64,000 bases of DNA from Agathobaculum sp. NTUH-O15-33 (GTDB taxonomy: Bacteria > Bacillota > Clostridia > Oscillospirales > Butyricicoccaceae). The stretch lies in assembly GCF_033193315.1 (NCBI RefSeq), contig NZ_CP136187.1, positions 3,169,501-3,233,500 of the forward strand, given 5' to 3'. This document shows, one piece after another, positions 3,173 through 52,530 of this stretch (position 1 is the stretch's first letter; each line of letters begins with the position of its first letter). The notes below the pieces were generated by a model that worked only from the letters and a program-made list of their open reading frames with translations, was not told where the DNA came from and did not search any database. A program made the position numbers and the translations under genes.

Positions 3173-3280
3173 GCCGAACGCAGCCACGGCCGCGTATACG
3201 AACATTACATAAGATTTTGAGAGAGAATCTGAAGAGCGATAGAAAAATGAGAAGCAAGTATCCGGTGGATTTCCTATCTT

Positions 3281-4598
3281 TTAAAAGGTCTTAAAAATAT
3301 CATCCATCCGCGTGAGCGTTTCGTCGATGTCCTTCTCGGTGTGTGCAATGGTGATGCCATAGTGCGCCGGGGATACCGGGCCCGCCGTATCGTGGAACCA
3401 CAGGCCGCGCGGCAGGCATTCGGTAACGAACTTTTTATACATGGACCGATCCAGCTCGGCCGCGACCTTGCGGAAATCAAAGTCGTCCTCGGTGTTTTCC
3501 ACGCCGAAGTAAATGGCAAAGCGCGCGCCCACGCCGCGGCAGTGGCCCTTCTTGCCATGCTTGGCAAACAGATCGTCGATACCGCGGTACAGCTTGTTGC
3601 CGATCTTCTCGATCTGATCGTAAAAGCCGGGCTCCATCGCCATCTTGATGCACTCGATCGCCGCGATAACCGGCATGTAGGAGCCTGTGTAGGTGCCGCT
3701 CACCGTTGTCTTGCCGATGGGGTTGAGGCAGTTCATAATATCCGCACGGCCGCCGAACGCCGCGATCGGCAGGCCGCCGCCAATGGCCTTGGCCATGGTG
3801 GTCATATCCGGCGTAACGCCGTAATATTTTTGCGCGGAACCCGGACGCATGCGCAGACCGCAGACAACCTCGTCAAAAATAAGAATGATCTTCTCGCGGG
3901 TGCAAAGCTCGCGCACCTGCTCTAAGTACTGCTTGCGCGCCTCATAGCAGCCGCAGTTGAAGCTGATGGGCTCTAAAATAACGCAGGCGATTTCGCCCTT
4001 GTACTTCTGTACCGCGTGCTCCAGCGCGTCGATATTGTTGAACACCACGTTCACGACGCTGTCCTTCGCGTTCTGCGGGAAGCCTTCGGAATCCGCCGCG
4101 GTCTCGACCTCGCCGTACTCGTCCGCCTTGCCCACGCCGTTGTGGTTGAACCAAATGTTCTCATGCATGCCGTGGAAATGGCCTTCAAATTTCAGCACCT
4201 TGTCGCGGCCGGTAAAGCTGCGCGAAACACGGATTGCCGCCTGCGTCGCCTCTGAGCCCGTGTTGGCCAACCGGACGCGCTCGCAACTCGGGAACACCTC
4301 GCGCAGAAGCTTGCCCAATTCCACATGGTACGCGGTATCAAAGTTCATGAAAAAGCCCTTGTCCATCGCGCGGCCGATGGCCTCGCGGATGCGCGGGTGG
4401 TTGTGTCCATAAAGGCCCGCGCCGGCGCAGGTGTGGTAATCGATGTACTCCTTGCCGTCCGCGTCCCAAACATGGCTGCCATCCGCGTGATCGATGTATA
4501 GCGGCTGCTTCCAGCACTGCGTTATAGCGCTGTCCCGCCGAGGCGCCCGCCACAAAGATCTGCTCGGCCTCGCGGTAAATTTCCTGTATGCGGCTCAT
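3281..4598 (-). CDS. Class-III PLP aminotransferase, glutamate-1-semialdehyde aminomutase-like, with a +1 frameshift near its start
   Basis: A PLP-dependent class-III aminotransferase of about 438 residues, related to glutamate-1-semialdehyde aminomutase and omega-aminotransferases. NTGSEATQAAIR binds the phosphate of PLP, IFDEVVCGLRM carries the cofactor-contacting Asp, and the lysine in TMAKAIGGGLPIAAFGG is the Schiff-base residue. The long open frame reaches only to about 4555 and has no ribosome site there. The natural start (ATG at 4598, after AGGAGT) lies in another frame and encodes SRIQEIYREAEQIFVAGASA. Removing one C from the CC at 4511-4512 joins the frames into VLKQPLYIDHADG, as the family expects. 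It is divergent from the aldehyde dehydrogenase. The substrate is unknown; the neighbours suggest an amino acid or aldehyde route joined to glutamate. The frameshift may be real or an assembly error. Confidence 0.82.
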
Positions 4599-4686
4599 AC
4601 AGTCCACTCCTTTTTATCGTTTGTATTTGAGCATGTGTATCAGCGGTTCCTTAATTATTTCAACCGTTGATATATGTCATGTTTTA

Positions 4687-4715
4687 TTTATAACACCCAA
4701 TCTCCATTCTGTCAA
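4687..4715 (-). promoter_or_regulatory. Sigma-A promoter for the aminotransferase
   Basis: On the minus strand TTGACA (4715-4710) and TATAAA (4692-4687) are 17 bp apart, in the AT-rich gap between the divergent genes. Confidence 0.7.
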
Positions 4716-4718
4716 CAC

Positions 4719-4739
4719 TTATTTTAATGGTTAATTTAA
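4719..4739. promoter_or_regulatory. Degenerate ROK-operator-like dyad
   Basis: TTATTTT-N7-AATTTAA lies just upstream of the aminotransferase -35 box. It matches 12 of 14 positions of the dyad that is exact at 7965-7985 and 11545-11565. Confidence 0.35.
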
Positions 4740-4843
4740 TTTACCGGGTTTTCTGCTGTTTTCCATCCTATTCAAAACATTGCATTTGTCATTCGACAAG
4801 GCTCTCACTTTTTCATTATATTTTTTAATTATTAAAAAAAGTG

Positions 4844-4872
4844 TTGACACCATATATTTTATATGTTAAATT
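4844..4872 (+). promoter_or_regulatory. Sigma-A promoter for the aldehyde dehydrogenase
   Basis: TTGACA at 4844-4849 is followed after 17 bp by the weak -10 TAAATT at 4867-4872. A T/A-rich palindrome (TTTTTTAAT-T-ATTAAAAAA, 4821-4839) sits directly upstream and may be a regulator site. Confidence 0.55.
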
Positions 4873-4943
4873 AAAGCTAATAAAAAGCGGCGGTCAAACG
4901 TCGCTCCACCATACAACATCGTCAAAATAGGAGGAACAAAATC

Positions 4944-6440
4944 ATGCGCATGATGGAAATCATCGATGAATCGACCGGCAAGGTAGTGGGCAGCGTCCCG
5001 CACTACGACGGCAAGGAGATCGCGGAAATGGTAGACGTCGCTTACGCGGCGCAGCCCCGCTGGGAAAAGGTGCCGCTGTTCGAGCGCGGCCAGATCCTTT
5101 ACAAGTTCTGCGACCTGATCGACCAGAACCGCGAGGAGATCGCAAACTACATGTCCTGCGAAATGGGCAAGCCCATCCTTCAGTCCCGCGCGGAGACCAC
5201 CTACGCCGCCGAGATCGGCCGCGCCAACATCGAAGTGGGCAAGCACATGTACGGCGAGGTGCTGTGCGACAGCTCCGAGGGCTACGAGGATCACGTGGTC
5301 ATGGTCCGTCACGAGGCGCTGGGCGTCGTCGCGGCGGTCATCCCCTTCAACTACCCGGTCGAGCTGACCCTGCAAAAGGTCGTTCCGGCGCTTCTGATGG
5401 GCAACACCATGATCGTCAAGGCATCCACCACGGCCCCCTGCTGCGTCAAGAAGCTGATCGATCTGGCGATCGAAGCCGGCGTGCCGCAGGACGTGCTGCA
5501 ATTCGTCACCGGCAGCCGCGAGGACTGCACCGAAAACCTGCTGACCAACAAAAAGGTCGCCTGCATCGCCATGACCGGCAGCACCGAGGCCGGCGCCGAG
5601 ATGATGCACGACGCCGCGCCCACCATCAAGAAGGTCATTCTGGAACTGGGCGGCAACGATCCCCTCATCATCACCGAGGAAGCCGCGAACGATCCCGAAC
5701 TGATCGCCAAGGCGATCGAGTGCCTGTGCTGGGGCCGCATCAACGAAAACAACGGGCAGGTCTGCGCCTCCCCCAAGCGCACTATCGTACATAAGAAGGC
5801 GCACGATGTGTTCGTCAAGTGCCTAGTGAACTTTGTTTCCACCCTCAAGCGCGGCCACGCGACCGATCCCGAGGCGCAGCTGACCCGTCTGGTCTCCACC
5901 AAGGCGGCCGAGCGCGTCGAGAAGCAAATTCAGCACACCATCGATCAGGGCGCGAAGCTCCTTTACGGCGGCAAGCGCAACGGCCCCGAAATGGACGTGA
6001 CCATTCTGGACAACGTGACCAAGGACATGGATATCGCGTGCGATATGGAGGTATTCGGCCCCGTCGTTCCGATCATCACCTTTGAGACCGACGAAGAAGC
6101 CGTCGCGATCGCCAACCAGAGCCAGTACGGCCTGTCCGCCTGCGTGATCACCAAGGACCTGAAGAAGTCCTTCTACTACACCGAGCACGTGGAATCCTCG
6201 GCGGTATGGGTCAACGGTTCCAGCGCGCTGCGCCATAACGACCAGCCGTTCGGCGGCTGCAAGGGCACCGGCATCGGCAACGAGGGCGCGGGCTACTCCT
6301 GCGCTGAGTTCACACGCCTAAAGACCTACGGCTTCTGCGACGTTTCCCCCAAGGAGCGCCTGTACGAGCATGCCGACGGCATGGGCGATTTCCTTTCCAA
6401 CTTCCGCGCGCAGGTCGCGCAGCAGATGAAGGATATGTAA
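4944..6440 (+). CDS. NAD(P)-dependent aldehyde dehydrogenase
   Basis: A 498-residue aldehyde dehydrogenase, full length for the superfamily. It oxidises an aldehyde or semialdehyde to the acid using NAD(P). Seen are the nucleotide-binding stretch VVAAVIPFNYPVELTLQKVVPALLMGNT, the general-base Glu in LELGGNDP (about residue 234) and the catalytic Cys in NNGQVCASPKR (about residue 274). The C-terminal FGPVVPIITF and the PFGGCKGTGIGNEG region are also conserved. The start follows AGGAGG and opens with clustered methionines (MRMM). It is divergent from a semialdehyde-aminotransferase-like gene, so an amino-aldehyde or succinate-semialdehyde-type substrate is plausible, but the sequence does not settle this. 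Confidence 0.9.
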   Translation: MRMMEIIDESTGKVVGSVPHYDGKEIAEMVDVAYAAQPRWEKVPLFERGQILYKFCDLIDQNREEIANYMSCEMGKPILQSRAETTYAAEIGRANIEVGKHMYGEVLCDSSEGYEDHVVMVRHEALGVVAAVIPFNYPVELTLQKVVPALLMGNTMIVKASTTAPCCVKKLIDLAIEAGVPQDVLQFVTGSREDCTENLLTNKKVACIAMTGSTEAGAEMMHDAAPTIKKVILELGGNDPLIITEEAANDPELIAKAIECLCWGRINENNGQVCASPKRTIVHKKAHDVFVKCLVNFVSTLKRGHATDPEAQLTRLVSTKAAERVEKQIQHTIDQGAKLLYGGKRNGPEMDVTILDNVTKDMDIACDMEVFGPVVPIITFETDEEAVAIANQSQYGLSACVITKDLKKSFYYTEHVESSAVWVNGSSALRHNDQPFGGCKGTGIGNEGAGYSCAEFTRLKTYGFCDVSPKERLYEHADGMGDFLSNFRAQVAQQMKDM

Positions 6441-6451
6441 GCACCTGTATG

Positions 6452-6489
6452 AAAAAGGGCACGCCGCGTTTTTGCGGCGTGCCCTTTTT
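6452..6489 (+). terminator. Terminator after the aldehyde dehydrogenase
   Basis: AAAAAGGGCACGCCGC pairs with GCGGCGTGCCCTTTTT across a short T-rich loop. It is symmetrical and could work on both strands. Confidence 0.9.
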
Positions 6490-6519
6490 GCGGCTTCCCC
6501 TCCCGCGCTTCACCCAACA

Positions 6520-6720
6520 CAAAAAAGCCGTCGCTTATGCGACAGCTTCTTTGTTGTTCGATGCAGTTATATCATGATTTTGTGCGGCCGCTTCATGCGT
6601 TTTTCCAATAACGCCGCAGCGGCACAGCGTTTTCAGCGTTCCTTTCCGCTATCGCAGCACCTCCCTTCCCCGTCAACGCCTCATGGCGCAGATTTGTTTT
6701 TGTACTTATTCTAATAGTTT
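6520..6720 (-). ncRNA. Possible minus-strand structured RNA ending in a terminator
   Basis: The gap from 6490 to 6906 has no convincing gene. On the minus strand a GC-rich patch of several short stems (about 6590-6700) lies between AT-rich flanks. It is followed by the stem GTCGC-ATAA-GCGAC and a T run at about 6545-6520, which looks like a terminator without a gene. A TATAAT-like box lies near 6730, but I find no good -35. I compared it by eye with common riboswitch classes, SRP RNA and 6S RNA and found no match. It may be a small RNA, the remnant of a lost gene, or chance structure. Confidence 0.25.
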
Positions 6721-6906
6721 ATATTATATATCAATAAATAGCAAGGCTTATTTTTTATAAAATTTACAAACACATTTTGTCACCGCGAAACTGTTCATTT
6801 CGCTTTACAAAAAGGTGCTTTTAGGATAAAATATAAATAAAAAATACTTAAAATAAATTACAAAATATATTGCCGTGCCGAGACGCGCGGTTCGGGAGGT
6901 TAACCC

Positions 6907-7926
6907 ATGACTATCAACACCGCTATCGACATCCGTGAGCGTAATTTAGAGCGCATCCGCAGCGCGATCCAGCGCCACGAGACCTGCACCAAAACAGAGA
7001 TCGCGCGCGAGACCGAACTGAGCATGGCGACCACCAGCACCGCCTTGAACGAAATGCTGATCAGCGGCGAGATCGCCAAGATCGACCAGACCGGCGTCAG
7101 CATCGGCCGCCCAGCCGATATATTTGCCTATAACCCCGATCACCTGCATACCCTCGCCATCTGCACCACCATGAAAAACGGTACGGACGCCGTGGAATAC
7201 ATCATCGCCGACGCGCTCGGCCGAATCATCCAGCGGGAAAGCCAGCCGATCGCCTCCGTCAGCGCCGAGCTGCTCGAAGCGCTGGTCACCACCTGTATCG
7301 TGCAGGACCCGCTCATCCGCACGGTCGGCCTCGGTATCCCCGGCCACGCGCAGTCCGGCTGCATCACCCAATGCGACATCGCCGCTTTGGAGGGCGTGGA
7401 CTTCGCATCGCGCATCCGCGCCAAGCACAACGTTGCCGTCGTCGTGGAAAACGATATGAATATCATCACCTATTGCCTCTATCAGGAGCTCGATTGCCCA
7501 CAGGACGATTTTGCAGCCCTGTATTTTCCCACGCAGGAAAACTCCTTTGTCGGCGGCGGCTTCATCATTGGGGGCCGCCTGCACAAGGGCTGGACGATGT
7601 TTTCCGGCGAAGTGAGCTATATCGCCCGCGCCTTCGGCTTTTCCTCGGCCGATCAGGCCGCTCTGCCGCGCGAGCGCGGGGCGTTCTGCCGCTTTGCCGC
7701 GCAGATCGTAACCACGGTCGTGTGCACGATCAACCCGCCCCGCATCGTTATCATGGGCGAAGCGCTGGCGGAAACCGACCTGCCGGATATTTGCGGCTAT
7801 TGCCGCCAGTTCATTCCCGCCCACAACGTGCCCGAGCTGCGCATCGATAACAATATCTTTGATAACTACGCTGAAGGGTTGGTCCGCCTCACGCTCGACC
7901 ATGTGCTCTTCCCCACGCTGATATGA
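6907..7926 (+). CDS. ROK-family transcriptional regulator
   Basis: 339 residues with the layout of NagC/XylR-type ROK repressors. The N-terminal winged helix (about residues 10-65) reads ERIRSAIQRHETCTKTEIARETELSMATTSTALNEML and is followed by the wing IDQTGVSIGRPA. The rest is a ROK sugar-kinase-like fold with VGLGIPGHA, VVENDMN and SGEVSYIARAFG. The cysteine zinc motif of ROK kinases is absent, so it is unlikely to phosphorylate sugar. The ligand is unknown. A GGGAGGT ribosome site precedes the ATG. It lies between the aldehyde dehydrogenase and the HyuA-like gene. AT-rich dyads TTATTTT-N7-AAAATAA nearby are of a kind bound by ROK repressors, so it probably controls this cluster. Confidence 0.85.
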   Translation: MTINTAIDIRERNLERIRSAIQRHETCTKTEIARETELSMATTSTALNEMLISGEIAKIDQTGVSIGRPADIFAYNPDHLHTLAICTTMKNGTDAVEYIIADALGRIIQRESQPIASVSAELLEALVTTCIVQDPLIRTVGLGIPGHAQSGCITQCDIAALEGVDFASRIRAKHNVAVVVENDMNIITYCLYQELDCPQDDFAALYFPTQENSFVGGGFIIGGRLHKGWTMFSGEVSYIARAFGFSSADQAALPRERGAFCRFAAQIVTTVVCTINPPRIVIMGEALAETDLPDICGYCRQFIPAHNVPELRIDNNIFDNYAEGLVRLTLDHVLFPTLI

Positions 7927-7964
7927 GCGGAGCAATCCACAAAACCGGCAGCGGTTTTATGCAT

Positions 7965-7985
7965 TTATTTTGCTATTTAAAATAA
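7965..7985. promoter_or_regulatory. Candidate ROK operator before the HyuA-like gene
   Basis: Perfect dyad TTATTTT-N7-AAAATAA in the 83-bp gap after the ROK gene. The same half-sites and spacing recur at 11545-11565 before the mutase gene. Confidence 0.5.
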
Positions 7986-8009
7986 TACAAAATTTATAGG
8001 AGGTTTCAT

Positions 8010-9986
8010 ATGCGTAAGATATTGGGCATCGATACCGGCGGCACCTATACCGACGGCGTTATCGTCGCAGCCGGTACCCGTGAAATACTGTGTAAGACCA
8101 AAACGCTCACCACGCACCGCAACCTGCGTTTGTGCATCAATAACTGCATCCACGCCTTCCGCCCGGACCAGCTGGAGGGCGTATCCCTCGTCTGCCTGTC
8201 CACCACGCTGGCGACCAACGCCATCGTCGAGGGGCGCGGCTGCAAGGAAGGCCTCATTTTAATCGGCGGCAGGCCGGAGGGCAAAATGCCTTCGTCCCGC
8301 TACCGCGTTATCCGGGGCAAACCGGATATTCGGGGCCGCATGCGTGAAAACATCGATCCAAACGAGGTGGACGAGGCGATCGAGAGCTTTCGCGGCGAGG
8401 TCGACGCGCTGGCGGTCTCCGGCTACGCCAGTGTGCGCAATCCGGAGCATGAGATCTATGTCAAGCAGCGCATCCAGCAAAGGCTTGGCGTTCCCGTTGT
8501 CTGCGCGCACGATCTGACCGGCTCGCTCGGCTTTTACGACCGTACGGTAACCGCCACGCTGAACGCCCGCCTCATCCCCCTGCTTTGCGAGCTGATCGAT
8601 TCGGTCCGGCAGGTCATGCTTGGCCACCAGATTGAAGCGCCGCTTATGATCGTCCGGGGCGACGGTACGCTCATGACCGCCGAATGCGCGCGGGATAAGC
8701 CCATCGAGACCATCCTTTCCGGTCCCGCGGCCAGTATCATCGGCGGCGTGTTCCTATCCGGCGAAACGAACCCCATTGTTCTGGACATGGGCGGCACGAC
8801 AACCGATCTTGCCAATGTGGAAGAAGGCCGCATGCTTATGAATAACGACGGCGCCAAGGTCGGCGGCTGGTTTACCCAGATTCGCGCAGCCGAGGTCTAT
8901 ACCATCGGCCTTGGCGGCGACAGCCGCGTGTATTTAGACAGTGAACGCCGCGTGTCGGTCGGGCCGCAAAAGGTCATTCCATACTGTGTCGCCGCCACAT
9001 GGTTCCCCGATCTGCTACGGGAGCTGCAAGACATCTATGGGCAAGAGGACCGGCCCTATCTGAACTTTTGGCGCAATGAGATCGAAGCCTTCATGCTTGC
9101 GCGCTACGCGGAAGAGAATGAGCTGAGCGAGTTGGAATGCCAGATCGTGCGCACGCTCGACCGGTCGCCCCACACGCTCTATGTGCTGCAAAAGCAGATC
9201 GGGGTGCCGAGCCTTATCTCCGCGCTGGAGCGTCTGCTCGCGGCGGGCTACGTTTCCCGCATCGCCCTTTCGCCCACCGATGTTCTGCACGCCACCGGCG
9301 CGTATGTCGAGTGGGACGCCGAAGCCGCGCGGCTCGTCCTGCAAATCATGGCCGATCAGCTTTCCATCCGCTTTGGCGAATGCGCCGAGCGGGTGCGCGC
9401 CACCATCCACCGCTTGCTGGGCTGCGCCTGCATCCAGAGCGGCTTATACTTTGACCGGCAGGATTTTGACGCCAGCTCCAGCGAAGCGGCGGATTATTTC
9501 GTCAACCGGATTTTCCTGAACGACCAAAGCCCCGTGCTTGGCGGCCACTATTATTTGAAAAAGCCGGTCGTCGCCATCGGCGCGCCCACCGGGGCGTGGG
9601 TCGGCACGCTGGCCGAAACGCTGGGCACCCGCGTCATCGTGCCGCCCTACGCGGAGGTCGCGAACGCCGTGGGCGCCGCGGTAGGGCAGGCCACCGAGCA
9701 GGTCGAAATATTGATCCGGCCCGACCCTATCACCAAAACCTATACCGTGTTCGGCTCCCAGAAGCGTCTCAGCGAGCCCACGCTGGATCAGGCCACTGAT
9801 TGCGCGCGCCGGCTGGGCGCGGAGCAAGCCGCCGCTTACCTGCCCGGCGCCTTCTTTGATCTGACCGACCGCGTCGAGGACGTGGAGGTCGCCGACCGCT
9901 ATACCGGACAAACGCGTTTTGTCGAACGCCGCGTGATCATCACCGCCGTTTCCCACCTGACCGCGCGAAATAACGTTCACTCGTAG
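8010..9986 (+). CDS. Hydantoinase/oxoprolinase A-like (HyuA-like) ASKHA protein
   Basis: 658 residues, similar to HyuA, the ATP-using subunit of hydantoinases and 5-oxoprolinases. ILGIDTGGTYTDGVIV (residues 4-19) is the N-terminal phosphate loop, LSTTLATNAIVEGRG follows near residue 70, and the ASKHA phosphate-2 motif LDMGGTTTDLANVE is near residue 258. GLGGDSRVYL is also typical. The ribosome site TAGGAGGT is strong. No hydantoinase B gene is near, although HyuA and HyuB usually work together. ASKHA proteins next to B12 mutases (for example MutL) act as activators or chaperones, so a role in keeping the downstream mutase active is possible. This is inference; an orphan hydrolase is the alternative. 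Confidence 0.78.
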   Translation: MRKILGIDTGGTYTDGVIVAAGTREILCKTKTLTTHRNLRLCINNCIHAFRPDQLEGVSLVCLSTTLATNAIVEGRGCKEGLILIGGRPEGKMPSSRYRVIRGKPDIRGRMRENIDPNEVDEAIESFRGEVDALAVSGYASVRNPEHEIYVKQRIQQRLGVPVVCAHDLTGSLGFYDRTVTATLNARLIPLLCELIDSVRQVMLGHQIEAPLMIVRGDGTLMTAECARDKPIETILSGPAASIIGGVFLSGETNPIVLDMGGTTTDLANVEEGRMLMNNDGAKVGGWFTQIRAAEVYTIGLGGDSRVYLDSERRVSVGPQKVIPYCVAATWFPDLLRELQDIYGQEDRPYLNFWRNEIEAFMLARYAEENELSELECQIVRTLDRSPHTLYVLQKQIGVPSLISALERLLAAGYVSRIALSPTDVLHATGAYVEWDAEAARLVLQIMADQLSIRFGECAERVRATIHRLLGCACIQSGLYFDRQDFDASSSEAADYFVNRIFLNDQSPVLGGHYYLKKPVVAIGAPTGAWVGTLAETLGTRVIVPPYAEVANAVGAAVGQATEQVEILIRPDPITKTYTVFGSQKRLSEPTLDQATDCARRLGAEQAAAYLPGAFFDLTDRVEDVEVADRYTGQTRFVERRVIITAVSHLTARNNVHS

Positions 9987-9997
9987 ACTTCTATTTT

Positions 9998-10028
9998 AAT
10001 ACTTAAATAAATATTTAATTTAAGTATT
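9998..10028. promoter_or_regulatory. Inverted repeat overlapping the gdh -35 box
   Basis: Perfect 11-bp arms AATACTTAAAT and ATTTAAGTATT with a 9-bp spacer. The right arm covers the -35 of the next promoter, where a repressor would block transcription. Confidence 0.5.
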
Positions 10029-10054
10029 GACTTTTAAAAAAGTCATTGTAAAAT
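10027..10054 (+). promoter_or_regulatory. Promoter for glutamate dehydrogenase
   Basis: TTGACT (10027-10032) and TAAAAT (10049-10054) are 16 bp apart, 107 bp before the gene start. Confidence 0.55.
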
Positions 10055-10160
10055 ATAATATATACAACGTTTGAAATAAGTCGTAAATTTACTCGCACCG
10101 CCCGCATGCGCGACCGAACCAAACACCGCCATTTTCTAAATGCAGAAAGGAAGAAACGCA

Positions 10161-11417
10161 ATGAAACAGCAATACAACCCCTACGACAATGTACTCAAAG
10201 TCGTCGACCATGCCGCTTCGATGCTCGGCTACAAAGAAAAAGAGTACGCCATCCTGAAATATCCGGAGCGCGAGCTTCAGGTATCCATGCCCGTTGTGAT
10301 GGACGACGGCTCGCTCAAGGTATTTGAGGGCTTCCGCGTACAGCACTCCACCGCGCGCGGACCGGCCAAGGGCGGCGTGCGCTTCCATCCCGGCGTCAAC
10401 CATGACGAGGTCAAGGCTCTCGCCGCTTGGATGACGTTCAAATGCGCCGTTGTCAACATCCCCTACGGCGGCGGCAAGGGCGGCATCATCTGCGACCCGT
10501 CGGGCATGAGCGAACGCGAGCTGCACGCCCTCACCAGCAAATACACGGCGGCCATCGCCCCGCTGATCGGGCCAGAGCAGGATATCCCGGCGCCCGATGT
10601 GGGCAGCAACGCGCACGTCATGGCGTGGATGATGGATACTTATTCGATGCTCAAGGGGCACAGCGTGCTGGGCGTGGTCACCGGCAAGCCGATCGGCCTT
10701 GGCGGTATTCTGGGCCGAAACGAAGCGACCGGCCGCGGCGTCATGTTCACGATCAACAACCTGCTGAAAAAGGAAAACCGCCCGATTGAAGGCACCAGCG
10801 TGGTCGTGCAGGGCATGGGCAACGTGGGCTCCATCACCGCGAAGCTGCTGCACCGTCAGGGCATGAAGATCATTGCCGTTTCCGATGTTTCGGGCGGCGT
10901 GTACGATCCGAACGGTCTGGATATCCCCGGTATCCTCGCTTACCTGTCCGGCGGCAAAAACCTTTTAAAGGATTTCGACGCGCCCGGCATCAACCATATC
11001 TCCAATGCCGAGCTGCTGGAGCTGGACACCACCGTACTGGTTCCCGCCGCGCTCGAAAACCAGATCAACGGCGAGAACGCCGAGCGCATCAAGGCCAAGT
11101 ATGTTGTCGAAGCCGCCAACGGCCCGACCACGCTGGAAGCCGATGATATCCTGCAAGCGCGCGGCATCAAGCTGGTCCCCGATATTCTTGCCAACGCCGG
11201 CGGCGTGGTCGTTTCCTACTTCGAGTGGGTGCAGAATATTCAGGAGCTGTGCTGGAGCGAAGAACGCGTAAACAGCGAACTGAAAAACATTATGGATACC
11301 GCGTTTGAAGCCGTGTGGGAGATCGCCGAGCAGCGCGATACCACGCTGCGCACCGGCGCTTACCTGATCTCGGTCAAGCGCGTCGTGGAGGCTCGTCAGG
11401 GCCGCGGCGTTTTCTAA
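10161..11417 (+). CDS. Glu/Leu/Phe/Val dehydrogenase, probably glutamate dehydrogenase
   Basis: 418 residues, full length for a hexameric glutamate dehydrogenase: L-glutamate + NAD(P)+ + H2O to 2-oxoglutarate + NH4+. The dimerisation domain holds GPAKGGVRFHP and the substrate-binding lysine motif PYGGGKGGI (about residues 101-109). DIPAPDVGSN and GVVTGKP follow, and then the Rossmann domain with VVQGMGNVGSITAK. ILANAGGVVVSYFEW near the end is typical of Gdh. I start it at the second ATG, which has AAAGGAAG at the right distance. It sits between the HyuA-like protein and the mutase and could supply or remove glutamate for the aminotransferase. Coenzyme choice cannot be read safely. Confidence 0.9.
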   Translation: MKQQYNPYDNVLKVVDHAASMLGYKEKEYAILKYPERELQVSMPVVMDDGSLKVFEGFRVQHSTARGPAKGGVRFHPGVNHDEVKALAAWMTFKCAVVNIPYGGGKGGIICDPSGMSERELHALTSKYTAAIAPLIGPEQDIPAPDVGSNAHVMAWMMDTYSMLKGHSVLGVVTGKPIGLGGILGRNEATGRGVMFTINNLLKKENRPIEGTSVVVQGMGNVGSITAKLLHRQGMKIIAVSDVSGGVYDPNGLDIPGILAYLSGGKNLLKDFDAPGINHISNAELLELDTTVLVPAALENQINGENAERIKAKYVVEAANGPTTLEADDILQARGIKLVPDILANAGGVVVSYFEWVQNIQELCWSEERVNSELKNIMDTAFEAVWEIAEQRDTTLRTGAYLISVKRVVEARQGRGVF

Positions 11418-11544
11418 AAAATACTTGTTTTTGCGTTTTCTGCCCGCCGTCCATCGCCATTGCTTGAAATTTCGTTCATTCTTACGAAATTACATACGGA
11501 ATCCTATTGCTTTTGTCGATTGACGGCGGGCTGCTTTCCCTCTA

Positions 11545-11565
11545 TTATTTTTATATTAAAAATAA
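11545..11565. promoter_or_regulatory. Candidate ROK operator before the mutase gene
   Basis: TTATTTT-N7-AAAATAA. Here the palindrome extends to TTATTTTTA-TAT-TAAAAATAA, 50 bp before the start codon. Identical half-sites and spacing to 7965-7985. Confidence 0.5.
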
Positions 11566-11614
11566 CACTTTCATAAACCTCACCATCCACATAGATATAA
11601 GGAGGAGTGCCAAT

Positions 11615-13372
11615 ATGGACGAACAGCTGCGTGAATATATCAAAAGTCTGATCCCGGAAAACTTTCCCGACGGCCGCGAGCTGCTCAAGGAAGGCAGGGA
11701 AATGGGCCCCACCATCAACGTCCCCCGCACCCCCTTCCTGCAAAAGCACGGCTGTAAAACTTATCTGGAATACCGCAAGAAGCGTCTGGCGGAGGGCAAG
11801 CAGACTTGGCAGCTGCTGATCGGTCTCGCCACGTTGGAAGACGAATTGAACGCGATCCGCGCGATTGACGCTTTCAACCAGCGAAATGCGGATGAGGGCA
11901 TGGAAATCTCGGGCATTCAGTCCATCCCGTCGCAGATCGTCGGCCTGCCCCATGAATACTGGGACACGTTCCCGAAGCAGACCAGCTACGAAATGTTTGA
12001 TCCCGCCGACTGGAAAGCGCATACCGACGCCGCGCCCATTCAGGTCGCGTGGCAGGATTTTCATTTGGCTTGTCCCGCGTCCCTGCAAACGACCATCAAC
12101 GCGCTGGAAGCGGGCACCGACCGTTTGGGCTGTTTTTCCACGCTAATCTGGGAGTACACCGGCTACCACGAGGAAGTGAACCGCTTTTCCGACATGGTCC
12201 GCTCGCTCGGCATCCTGTCCACCAAAAAGGATCTGGATATCGACGTTGTCACCTACCCGGAGGACGGCATCCCCGGCTACTTTCTGGACGTTGTCTCTTG
12301 GGTCGGCTATATGATGGTCGAGCACTACATCGCCACCGAGCTGTGCGGCACCCTGTTTTCCGTCAGCTACGGCGGTCTGCTGACCGAGGTGCAGCCCCGC
12401 ATGGCGTTCGCCCTTGCCATGCACAAGCTGTTTTCCACCCCCGATCATCCGGGCGTCGTCTACTACAACGGCGGCACGGTCGATCAGCTCGACCACGACG
12501 TCAACGCCAACTTCGGTACCGGCGTGCAAGAGGCGCTCATCCAAACGCTGTTTAACCTAAAATATAACCTGCCGGTCATCATCAGTCCTACCGCCGTCAC
12601 CGAGCGGCTGCGCCACCCCTCGCTCGACGAACTGCTCGACATCGCCGCGGCCGGTATGCGCGCCGAATATAAGGCAAAGGAATGGCTGCCGCTGATGGAT
12701 TTCACCCCCATCGAGCAAATGTGCGATAAGATGATCGAAAAGGGCGTCAAATTTTACGAAAATGTGATGAACGCCTTCCGCGAGGCAGGCGTCGACACCG
12801 AGGATCCGCTGCAAATGATCATGATGCTCAAGCGCTTTAGCCCGACTAAATTTGAACAGAGCTTCCACCCCAGTATCGAGGAGACCGGTTCGTTCCATCC
12901 CTACTTCCCGAGCCAGCTCGGCCAGCAGACCATGGAGATGAAGGACGAGATCGTCGCCGAGCTAAAGGAAAAGGGCATTCGTTTAAACGGCCAAAAGATC
13001 GTCTGCGTATCGGCCGACGGCCACAGCTACGGTCTAATGCTCATCACCGAGGTATACCGCGAAATACACGCCGAGCCGGTCAACGGCGGCGTCGATATGG
13101 AGCCCGCCGCCGTGCTCGATCTGGCGGATGAGGAAGGCACCGATATCATCTGCGTCAGCTCGCACTGCGGCCAATGCTTGTCCTACGCGCAGTCGATCAC
13201 CGCGCTTGCAAAGGAGCGCGGCAAAAAGTACCGTATCCTGATGGGCGGCATGCTCAACGCGCTGCTGCCCGGGAACGAGCTGCCGGTCGATGTGCAGGAT
13301 CTGGTGCGCGACACCGGCGTTTGCGGCACCAACGATTTCTGCGAGCAGGTCAGCTTCATTTTAGAGCATTGA
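11615..13372 (+). CDS. Single-chain B12-dependent mutase, glutamate-mutase-like
   Basis: 585 residues. The last ~130 are a cobalamin-binding domain with the base-off/His-on signature D-x-H-x-x-G (DGHSYG, residues 468-473), then VSSHCGQ and MGGMLNALLPG, which resemble VSSLYGQ and VGG in the small subunit of glutamate mutase. Residues ~70-400 resemble the large glutamate mutase subunit, for example LEDELNAIRAIDAFNQRN where MutE has TIDAYTRQN. Glutamate mutase normally comes as two chains; here they look fused, with the B12 domain last. No methylaspartase follows, so the product is probably not used as in the methylaspartate pathway. The start follows AAGGAGGAG; an upstream in-frame start lacks a site. 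Substrate unknown. A methyltransferase-type corrinoid protein is less likely because of the barrel and the VSS/GG motifs. Confidence 0.75.
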   Translation: MDEQLREYIKSLIPENFPDGRELLKEGREMGPTINVPRTPFLQKHGCKTYLEYRKKRLAEGKQTWQLLIGLATLEDELNAIRAIDAFNQRNADEGMEISGIQSIPSQIVGLPHEYWDTFPKQTSYEMFDPADWKAHTDAAPIQVAWQDFHLACPASLQTTINALEAGTDRLGCFSTLIWEYTGYHEEVNRFSDMVRSLGILSTKKDLDIDVVTYPEDGIPGYFLDVVSWVGYMMVEHYIATELCGTLFSVSYGGLLTEVQPRMAFALAMHKLFSTPDHPGVVYYNGGTVDQLDHDVNANFGTGVQEALIQTLFNLKYNLPVIISPTAVTERLRHPSLDELLDIAAAGMRAEYKAKEWLPLMDFTPIEQMCDKMIEKGVKFYENVMNAFREAGVDTEDPLQMIMMLKRFSPTKFEQSFHPSIEETGSFHPYFPSQLGQQTMEMKDEIVAELKEKGIRLNGQKIVCVSADGHSYGLMLITEVYREIHAEPVNGGVDMEPAAVLDLADEEGTDIICVSSHCGQCLSYAQSITALAKERGKKYRILMGGMLNALLPGNELPVDVQDLVRDTGVCGTNDFCEQVSFILEH

Positions 13373-13411
13373 TCCCTGTCCTCAGCAGTATCATAGAAAG
13401 GGGAAACCACC

Positions 13412-14500
13412 ATGACAGTGTCTCAACCGACACAGGAAGAAGTATGCAAACAGGCATCCCAAATGACGCCCGAACAAGCATATACACAAAAGAAGATCCG
13501 GATGGCGACAAGCGGGATGAAGATCGCGATCTTGATGCCCATCACCGCGATCCTGCAAAACATTTTTAACAACTCGGTCACCTCGACCATCATCCCCACC
13601 CTGTCCGACAAGGTGATCGTTTCCATACTCTGTTCCATCACGCTGATTGGCCTTTGCGACTTGTTTGCCGGTGTTTTCACCTTTCTCTACAACACGTCCC
13701 GCGGAAAAGGTCTTACCGAGTATAAGCGCACCATCTCCCTTAAGGTATCGTGGATGATGCTGGCCTCGGCCGCGTTCGCGGGCCCGCTCGCCACCGGCTG
13801 CTGGATGGCCGCCACGCCCTTTTGCGGACTCACCACGGTCGCGGTCGTCACCAGTCTGGGGCCGATTCTCACGGCGATCATCGGCAAGTTCTTTCTTAAG
13901 GAAAATATCAGCGCGCGCGTATATCTCGGCATCGGCATCACGGTCGTGGGCGTGATCGTTTCGGGCTGGACAGGCTTTTCCGAAGGCGGCAGCAACTTTA
14001 TTTTAGGCTTTATCCTCGCCCTGATGGCGCCCATCGGCTTTACGCTTGAAGGGCAGTTCTCCACCTACGCGGGCGATATGATCGATCCGAATGTCGGCTG
14101 CGGCTTTTACCGCTGCTTTGGCTCGGGCGTGATCGGCCTGATCGCCATGACCATCCTGTCCGCCGCCACCGGCAATCTGGCCGCCTTTACCGGCATTCTG
14201 CGCATGGTGTTCACCACGCCCATTCTGCTTTTATTCGTCGTCATCACTGGGCTGCTCGGCGCGATCAACTACAACTGTGCGTACACCGCGTTTAACAAGG
14301 CCGGCCCCTCCCGCACGCTCGCGGTCGATTCCTCGCGTCCGATCTGGAGCATCCCCTTCGGCTACCTGTTTGCGGCCCTTGGCGTCGCGGCTTATTCGGT
14401 CAATGCGTTAGGCGTGGCCGGCGCGGTGATCGTTGTGCTCGGCCTGATCCTCATCATCTGCAAGCCGTCCGAGCTGGTCAACCTGCGCGACGTGTCGTAA
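13412..14500 (+). CDS. DMT superfamily transporter (EamA-like)
   Basis: 362 residues with about ten hydrophobic segments in two halves, as in the drug/metabolite transporter superfamily. The first half includes SLGPILTAIIGKFFLKENISARVYLGIGITVVGVIV, a typical EamA end-of-repeat pattern. The last helices are FGYLFAALGVAAYSVNALGVAGAVIVVLGLILII. About 35 polar residues precede the first helix, longer than usual. It starts 39 bp after the mutase gene with AGAAAGGGG and is probably in the same operon, so it may import or export the pathway substrate or product. Direction and solute cannot be read from sequence. Confidence 0.82.
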   Translation: MTVSQPTQEEVCKQASQMTPEQAYTQKKIRMATSGMKIAILMPITAILQNIFNNSVTSTIIPTLSDKVIVSILCSITLIGLCDLFAGVFTFLYNTSRGKGLTEYKRTISLKVSWMMLASAAFAGPLATGCWMAATPFCGLTTVAVVTSLGPILTAIIGKFFLKENISARVYLGIGITVVGVIVSGWTGFSEGGSNFILGFILALMAPIGFTLEGQFSTYAGDMIDPNVGCGFYRCFGSGVIGLIAMTILSAATGNLAAFTGILRMVFTTPILLLFVVITGLLGAINYNCAYTAFNKAGPSRTLAVDSSRPIWSIPFGYLFAALGVAAYSVNALGVAGAVIVVLGLILIICKPSELVNLRDVS

Positions 14501-14516
14501 GGAAGGAGAAAGACTG

Positions 14517-14783
14517 ATGAAATTACCGCTGAAAACGCGTATTCTGCAATACGCCATTCTGCTCGGCAACCCGTTCACAGTGTCCGACGTATACCACGAT
14601 CTCGCGGATGAATACGGCGGCGAAAAGCTTTTCACCCTTAAAACAGTGAACGATTACGTCGATTCCTTCCTCGGCATTGGCTTTTTAAAGGCCGCCCAGC
14701 TTGAATTTGATCCCCAAGGGGAACTGCTGATCCACTATCAGGTCACCGAATACGGCAAAACGCGACTCAAATACATACACTAA
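14517..14783 (+). CDS. Small winged-helix-like protein
   Basis: 88 residues with the helix/wing pattern of small winged-helix proteins: RILQYAILLGNPFTVSDVYHDLADEYGGEKLFTLKTVNDYVDSFLGIGFLKAA, then a strand pair ending YQVTEYGKTRLKYIH. It begins 16 bp after the transporter stop with AAGGAAGGAG, so it is the last gene of the mutase operon. It may be a second regulator of the cluster or an adaptor. No named family was recognised. Confidence 0.6.
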   Translation: MKLPLKTRILQYAILLGNPFTVSDVYHDLADEYGGEKLFTLKTVNDYVDSFLGIGFLKAAQLEFDPQGELLIHYQVTEYGKTRLKYIH

Positions 14784-30542: not shown

Positions 30543-30798
30543 AAAAAAGTTATAGCAGAAAAATGCTGCGAAGAAGAGGAGTATTCCCGCTTCCGGGCCT
30601 TTTAGAGAGAGGGCGGCTGGTGCAAGCCCTTGGGCGGACGGGGAGAAGGTCGCTTCCGAGCAGAACGGCTGAAGCGTATGTAAGCCGTTCCGGCAGGCCC
30701 CCGTTACGGGCTGTTGAGTGTCCGGGTCAGCGCCCGGAAAATCAGGTGGTACCACGGAGCCATGCTTCGTCCTGTCATAGGACGGAGCTTTTTTTATT
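30543..30798 (+). promoter_or_regulatory. T-box riboswitch controlling valS
   Basis: A leader of about 250 nt with a long stem I, the T-box sequence AGGTGGTACCACGG (30744-30757), and a terminator stem GCTTCGTCCT / AGGACGGAGC followed by seven T (30764-30795). Uncharged tRNA-Val would pair through its CCA end with the T-box and favour the antiterminator, allowing valS transcription. A plausible valine specifier codon GTC is at 30650-30652, in the 3' side of stem I (GAAGGTCGC); this assignment is by eye. Confidence 0.88.
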
Positions 30799-52212: not shown

Positions 52213-52440
52213 ATGAGCGAGAAAAGAGAACGCATTTGCCCGGTCTGCGGGCGCAGTTATACCGACCCTCCCGCGCTTTCACGGCGGGACAACAAGACGG
52301 ACATCTGCCCGGAGTGCGGGATGCGGGAAGCCCTAGCAGCAATTCCTCGGCGCGAGACCCCCGCCGAACGGACGCGGCGGGCCGTCTACGCTACCGGGAA
52401 CAAGTGGGCGATCGAGAACTTCGAGGCCACACACTCATAG
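52213..52440 (+). CDS. Small zinc-ribbon protein
   Basis: 75 residues with CPVCGRSY and CPECGMRE, two CxxC pairs of a zinc ribbon. The start follows GGAAGGAG; an earlier in-frame ATG overlaps the gene before. Role in the phage unknown. Confidence 0.6.
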   Translation: MSEKRERICPVCGRSYTDPPALSRRDNKTDICPECGMREALAAIPRRETPAERTRRAVYATGNKWAIENFEATHS

Positions 52441-52530
52441 CCGAAACGCCCCTCGGGGCGTCATCGAGGGGGAGAGCCCGCCCTCGGTCTGATGATGGCA
52501 GGGCACGGAACAACAGGAAGGAGCAGCAGT

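Follow-up and report, generated by a model that had tools for sequence, protein, structure and literature searches.

The mutase-like gene, its neighbours and its relatives

The window analysed here is a stretch of 64,000 nucleotides from Agathobaculum sp. NTUH-O15-33 (positions 3169501-3233500 of the host genome, G000, which is a single contig of 4.0 Mb). It contains, at 11615..13372 on the forward strand, a gene encoding a single-chain B12-dependent mutase-like protein of 585 residues, which has three paralogues in the genome. The only Pfam domain in this protein is the B12-binding domain PF02310 (E 5.9e-8, above the curated cut-off), and its sole NCBIfam match is a weak one to methylaspartate mutase subunit S (MutS; E 7.6e-4). 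The PF02310 match delimits a C-terminal cobalamin-binding domain (13001..13276, +), where the motifs DGHSYG (residues 468-473; 13016-13033, +), VSSHCGQ (residues 514-520; 13154-13174, +) and GG (residues 544-545; 13244-13249, +) are found. Residues 1-440 (11615..12934, +) have no Pfam match and correspond, by HHalign and residue mapping, to a barrel remotely homologous to MutE, in which E330 (12602-12604, +) is invariant. Barrel and cobalamin domain lie in one open frame of 585 residues and not in two separate chains.

Upstream, on the reverse strand, lies a class-III, HemL-like aminotransferase (3281..4555, -; PF00202), whose best NCBIfam matches, HemL and GntE, are below their cut-offs. The other neighbours are on the forward strand: an aldehyde dehydrogenase (4944..6440; PF00171, E 7.4e-131) with lactaldehyde and succinate-semialdehyde dehydrogenase as best NCBIfam matches, both under cut-off; a ROK-type protein and probable regulator (6907..7926; PF00480); a HyuA-like protein of 658 residues and putative mutase reactivase (8010..9986; PF05378 and PF01968); a glutamate dehydrogenase (10140..11417; PF00208/PF02812); and an EamA/DMT-type transporter (13412..14500; PF00892). 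A ROK match was likewise found by Pfam in the stretch L086, which overlaps one of the paralogous loci. An earlier note, made from the letters of the window alone, had described the 585-residue open reading frame, its cobalamin motifs and these neighbours other than the ROK-type protein, and the open reading frame list and the Pfam and NCBIfam scans confirmed all of them. At the 5' end of the aminotransferase gene (3281-4600, -) there is a one-base length difference from the Butyricicoccus faecihominis record L013, which gives the open reading frame a late start; either the assembly is faulty here or the gene itself is damaged.

G000 has three further full-length copies, with about 51, 46 and 44% identity to the window copy over nearly the whole length; the loci concerned, in no particular order, are L010 (overlapped by L086), L011 (with L087) and L012. 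The record of B. faecihominis DFI.6.109 (L013) encodes a 99%-identical protein, and a search of genome contigs with the window protein alone returned only this near-identical locus. Full-length relatives were also found in other Clostridia and Bacillota and on plasmids; together with the 99%-identical protein and the three paralogues they indicate that the locus is not a product of chance.

The distribution was evaluated in genome sets that are overlapping samples, with a loose first look before scoring. At the genus level (25 genomes), G000 and G1052, which are marked as one species, carry four full-length copies each and G1054 carries one; in G231 there is a truncated piece of some 140 residues, and the remaining matches are confined to the B12 domain. 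No full-length member besides G000 was found among 295 genomes of the order; at the class level 4 of 391 genomes match (E 1e-30) and at the phylum level 3 of 398 (E 1e-20), G000 being included in both counts, and in the order of G939 the only match among 25 genomes is G939 itself. Concerning plasmids, nine of 72,556 records match, eight of them covering at least 80% of the query, and their hosts are Shinella, Neorhizobium, Sinorhizobium, Phyllobacterium and Rhizobium (Rhizobiaceae and Phyllobacteriaceae). Phage records gave no match, and two scans of viral contigs likewise gave no relative. In these samples the family looks rare. The G231 fragment (L050, 8880-9320) lies beside glutamate dehydrogenase-, aldehyde dehydrogenase- and isomerase-like genes recognised by eye, and may represent a decayed locus.

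Fifteen members were aligned and used for a tree, omitting the four G1052 copies, L013, the G231 fragment, four further Shinella records and a partial Rhizobium match. The tree, with strong support for 11 of its 12 inner branches, separates clade H (the window, L010, L011, L012, L085 from G1054, and L047 and L048 from G939) from clade D (L041, L042, L043, L049 and the plasmid members L036-L039).

Cobalamin domain, barrel and substrate pocket

When the cobalamin domain was compared with PDB profiles, the top matches were small mutase subunits and MutS. The residues D468, H470, S515, G519, G544 and G545 are invariant in the 14 members scanned, and G473 is nearly so. A wider family profile of the domain additionally retrieves methionine synthase and corrinoid proteins from the PDB, and the L049 locus carries corrinoid-protein- and methyltransferase-like genes (by eye), so that a role as part of a corrinoid methyltransferase, or as a sensor dependent on B12, has to be considered. 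The best single-sequence matches, however, are mutase subunits. Moreover, the B12-binding_2 cap is absent from the eight Pfam families matched by any of the 14 members at E up to 1, and at the same threshold none of them has a DNA-binding domain. Considering also the MutE-like barrel and the MutL neighbours of three members, both described below, we regard such a role as very improbable; a methyltransferase was rejected on the missing cap domain.

Residues 1-440 matched no Pfam family above noise in any of the 14 members, and the family left the B12-enzyme barrels of the PDB unmatched in profile searches. We therefore describe the barrel on the basis of an HHalign comparison of the 15 family barrels with 10 MutE sequences, which gave a score of 50.1 (E 1.4e-5, probability 80) over 330 collinear columns (51-417 of the family against 61-425 of MutE). 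As controls, 200 column-shuffled MutE profiles scored 17.2 on average (standard deviation 2.7, maximum 28.2) and the reversed profile 24.7; five further control families, two of which are barrels, scored 17.2-20.6. A smaller MutE profile of three sequences gave a weak match (29.4, against 50.1 with ten). The 'MutE-like barrel' of the earlier note is thus right as a remote homology. The three other B12 barrels compared do not share it: methylmalonyl-CoA mutase scored 18.3, and the aminomutases KamD and OraE, which also combine B12 with a barrel, scored 18.4 and 18.8, which is the level of shuffled profiles, and an aminomutase was rejected on this ground.

In glutamate mutase, according to the available text of PMC9545868, R66, R149 and E171 bind the glycyl part of the substrate, while R100 and Y177 bind the acrylate part. 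The arginines of this claw are well kept in the MutE set (R66 and R149 in 9 of 10 sequences, R100 in all 10). None of the 15 family members has an arginine at the first two positions (L, I, H or Q is aligned with R66, and A, C, S, T, D or H with R149), and R100 falls opposite a gap in all of them. A glycine is aligned with E171, and W, H, Y or F with Y177, in a stretch where the alignment just past E171 moves by one residue between two alignment modes. MutE residues E330 and P335 are retained in 15 of 15 members. Among the 14 members, the invariant polar residues of the barrel are T123, D148, D217, D225, E236, N299, E330 and E414, and no arginine is invariant. The loss of the claw argues against glutamate, or any dicarboxylate bound in the same way, as the substrate, and to that extent agrees with the earlier note, whose proposal implies a different substrate.

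The comparison with glutamate mutase (GlmE/MutE and GlmS/MutS, with GlmL/MutL) can therefore be drawn on both sides. The family shares with it the MutE-like barrel, a DxHxxG...GG cobalamin domain, E330 and P335. It differs in having one chain instead of two, in lacking the claw arginines and in lacking PF06368 (Met_asp_mut_E), which was not matched by any of the 14 members at E up to 1 and has no match in G000 at E 0.001; the helper of glutamate mutase is MutL, whereas that of the window's clade is HyuA-like. Methylaspartase was not among the seven proteins of the window cluster that were scanned, and it was not searched for genome-wide. Glutamate mutase proper was rejected on the absence of the claw and of PF06368, and the protein appears to be a single-chain MutE relative that is unlikely to act on glutamate.

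A single chain is not without precedent. 2-Methyleneglutarate mutase, a B12-dependent carbon-skeleton mutase of nicotinate fermentation, consists of one chain of some 600 residues that carries its B12 domain at the C terminus. If the family belonged to it, the architecture would not be new and only the substrate would differ. In a 2009 survey this enzyme was known only from Eubacterium barkeri, then unsequenced (PMC2667541). Its pathway context is nevertheless different: neither inspection by eye nor the Pfam and NCBIfam scans made revealed a gene of the nicotinate pathway at the loci examined, and amino compounds are suggested by the aminotransferase and the glutamate dehydrogenase, which makes membership in that family rather improbable. 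The same survey predicted, in the part consulted, a B12 family of unknown enzyme activity with a TIM barrel and a B12 domain, similar to ours by description (PMC2667541). There the B12 domain is N-terminal and the neighbour is an octopine/nopaline dehydrogenase, and on domain order this candidate was rejected. A full-text search of the openly accessible literature, preprints excepted, in which a minority of the papers listed was opened, showed no description of the present family.

The HyuA-like partner and the recurring gene set

G000 contains four PF01968 matches in total, one near each of the four mutases, at distances of about 0.8 kb (L012), 1.6 kb (window), 5.9 kb (L010) and 12.3 kb (L011/L087). 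Assuming independent placement, the chance of four linkages within 14 kb is near 8e-7. No full MutL was found in this genome, where partial matches occur only inside the HyuA-like genes. In three genomes of clade D (G412, G663 and G748), the mutase has a full MutL (E below 1e-130) as its neighbour, with 48-88 bases between the two matches. Over the whole family, a MutL or MutL-like gene is found near 9 of the 15 members (6 HyuA-like and 3 MutL). MutL is the chaperone that reactivates glutamate mutase, according to the text available from PMC4682846. The profile of the HyuA-like proteins aligns with MutL over 236 columns with a score of 38.6, compared with 18.1 for ROK and 16.0 for a single FGGY sequence. 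MutL/GlmL is defined by PF13941, while the HyuA domains are PF05378 and PF01968; PF13941 gives short partial matches, none of them full-length, in the HyuA-like proteins of L010, L012, L047, L085 and L087, and no match at E 0.001 in the window copy. HyuB was not among the cluster proteins scanned and was not searched for genome-wide, and the NCBIfam names of HyuA-family members are those of lactamase and carboxylase subunits. From the MutL genes adjoining the mutase in the three clade-D genomes, and from the similarity between the HyuA-like and MutL profiles, we conclude that the HyuA-like protein probably serves the mutase as a reactivating chaperone. Neither this role nor the three paralogues figured in the earlier note.

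The metabolic genes recur as well. A class-III aminotransferase is present at all four G000 loci and belongs to three lineages (24-30% identity between them, 80% between the window and L086). All seven clade-H loci have an aldehyde dehydrogenase close to the mutase, the four of G000 included, where it also forms three lineages; within clade H, identities are 28-47% between lineages, 78-92% among the window, L086 and L085, and 68% between L047 and L048. Glutamate dehydrogenase accompanies four of the seven clade-H loci (window, L010, L011 and L085), hence three of the four in G000, and an alanine dehydrogenase is encoded at L012. At three of the seven (window, L047 and L048) the gene directly after the mutase is that of an EamA transporter. 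In G1054 the position of the aminotransferase is not visible, because the contig starts just before the aldehyde dehydrogenase. As diverged enzymes of the same kinds are kept at paralogous loci, this suggests a conserved function leading from amine to aldehyde to acid. Three G000 loci also carry sugar-type transport, kinase or aldolase genes, while the window has the EamA carrier, and because these genes differ between the loci, the copies may serve different substrates. Concerning the recurrence of the gene set in related genomes, on which the earlier note had made its proposal depend, the result is mixed: the set recurs at the four paralogous loci of G000 and elsewhere only in part.

Because no other partner is as constant as the aldehyde dehydrogenase, the principal competing explanation is an adenosylcobalamin-dependent eliminase (an ammonia-lyase or dehydratase), or an amino-shifting enzyme, that would make the aldehyde directly for this dehydrogenase. 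Such an enzyme would fit the presence of the aldehyde dehydrogenase even at the two G939 loci, which showed no aminotransferase on inspection by eye, and the sugar-type genes at the three G000 loci; invariant acidic residues (D148, D217, D225, E236, E330 and E414) combined with no invariant arginine could also suit ammonium or hydroxyl groups. On the other hand, the barrel matches MutE and not the aminomutase barrels of KamD or OraE, and the full MutL beside three clade-D members recalls glutamate mutase operons. We consider the eliminase unlikely, although it deserves to be kept in mind.

The surroundings of clade D look amino-acid-like. A sodium:neurotransmitter-type symporter lies near the mutase in L041, and the plasmid loci carry annotated branched-chain amino acid ABC (ATP-binding cassette) transporters and pyrroline-5-carboxylate reductases. 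L043 has a glycyl radical enzyme (nearest HypD, below cut-off), an HpaB-like enzyme, an aminotransferase and a 2-oxoacid oxidoreductase, and L042, inspected by eye, shares this set together with the mutase-MutL pair, the two coming from Clostridia of different families. This set is possibly an undescribed amino acid pathway. In L049, next to the mutase-MutL pair, a tyrosine phenol-lyase-like gene is headed by a T-box at 5089-5352 (-) whose specifier is, by eye, UAC (tyrosine). As this leader belongs to the tyrosine phenol-lyase-like gene itself, we drew no conclusion on the substrate from it.

Proposed function

The reading that we prefer, with a probability of about 0.6, is that the window encodes a one-chain adenosylcobalamin-dependent mutase of an amino compound other than glutamate, with a HyuA-like reactivase and a product that goes on to transamination and aldehyde oxidation. 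In such a scheme the MutE-type barrel would be fused to the MutS-type cobalamin domain, with cobalamin bound base-off and His-on by analogy, and the amino compound would bind in the barrel. H470 would hold the adenosylcobalamin, whose Co-C bond would break; the adenosyl radical would abstract a hydrogen and the substrate would rearrange. The class-III aminotransferase could then deaminate the rearranged product, or a precursor, with 2-oxoglutarate as acceptor, glutamate dehydrogenase would regenerate 2-oxoglutarate, and the aldehyde dehydrogenase would oxidise the resulting aldehyde. The HyuA-like ATPase would clear inactivated enzyme, in the role of MutL/GlmL. The domains, the remote homology to MutE, the loss of the arginine claw and the recurring gene set can be read directly from the sequences, whereas the radical chemistry and the order of the steps are deduced from the kinship with MutE and from the neighbouring genes, and the reactivase role is a deduction too.

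It should be noted that several results weigh against this scheme. Taken alone against MutE, clade H scores 26.6 (359 collinear columns; maximum of 60 shuffles 23.7), clade D 28.8 (maximum of 60 shuffles 23.4) and the window sequence 19.7, which is noise level; the strong match therefore depends on pooling both clades, since each of them is weaker alone and the single sequence gives no signal. The structure predicted for the window protein alone has a mean pLDDT (predicted local distance difference test) of 36 and is unusable. A HyuA gene and a mutase gene may have been copied as a pair, so that the four linkages cannot be counted as separate events. Some proteins encoded away from any mutase found also give weak, partial matches to MutL. 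Inspection by eye revealed no HyuA in the 19.9-kb stretch of L048 and neither HyuA nor MutL at L041 or at the plasmid loci; a search for MutL in G425, the genome to which L041 belongs, was also negative at E 0.01. Glutamate dehydrogenase, like the class-III aminotransferase, was not recognised by eye at either G939 locus. Finally, no cobalamin riboswitch reached the Rfam gathering score in the window, L011, L012, L041-L043, L047-L049 or L085-L087, nor in L010, which was covered only where L086 overlaps it.

On balance, the interpretation proposed in the earlier note is partly supported: the results speak for the single chain, the remote MutE homology, the recurring gene set and a substrate other than glutamate, and a carbon-skeleton rearrangement and an amino-aldehyde product would be candidate features of the reaction. 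A wider claim, that we are dealing with a new family of single-chain adenosylcobalamin mutases for non-glutamate amino compounds, present here in four copies with different transporters and with HyuA replacing MutL, is put forward more tentatively, at somewhat less than even odds. Only a small number of carbon-skeleton mutases that depend on B12 are known, and they act on a small range of substrates. If the claim is true, it would add a new reaction to the catabolism of amino compounds in Clostridia, a gut species included, and on rhizobial plasmids, by an enzyme in which the claw is gone and the reactivase has apparently been exchanged. HyuA-like proteins annotated as hydantoinases would moreover gain a new role that is open to testing, and the four paralogues in one genome make the assignment of substrates by comparison practical.

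Some minor observations were made in the loci compared. UvrA-like ABC proteins of 812 and 765 residues are encoded near two mutase loci (L010, 5566-8004, and L085, 11226-13523). L048 contains at 3222-5876 an open reading frame of 884 residues that joins a xylose-isomerase-like barrel to an AMP-binding enzyme, and a T-box leader overlaps its listed start. A divergent MutE, 40% identical to that of L051, is encoded in L053 (1369-2817), where the next gene is, by eye, Ldh2-type dehydrogenase-like and not a methylaspartase. Elsewhere in the window, Rfam identified a T-box leader at 30559-30777 (+; 135 bits) and a type II hammerhead ribozyme at 52439-52507 (+), which scores 41.3 bits where the gathering score is 37.

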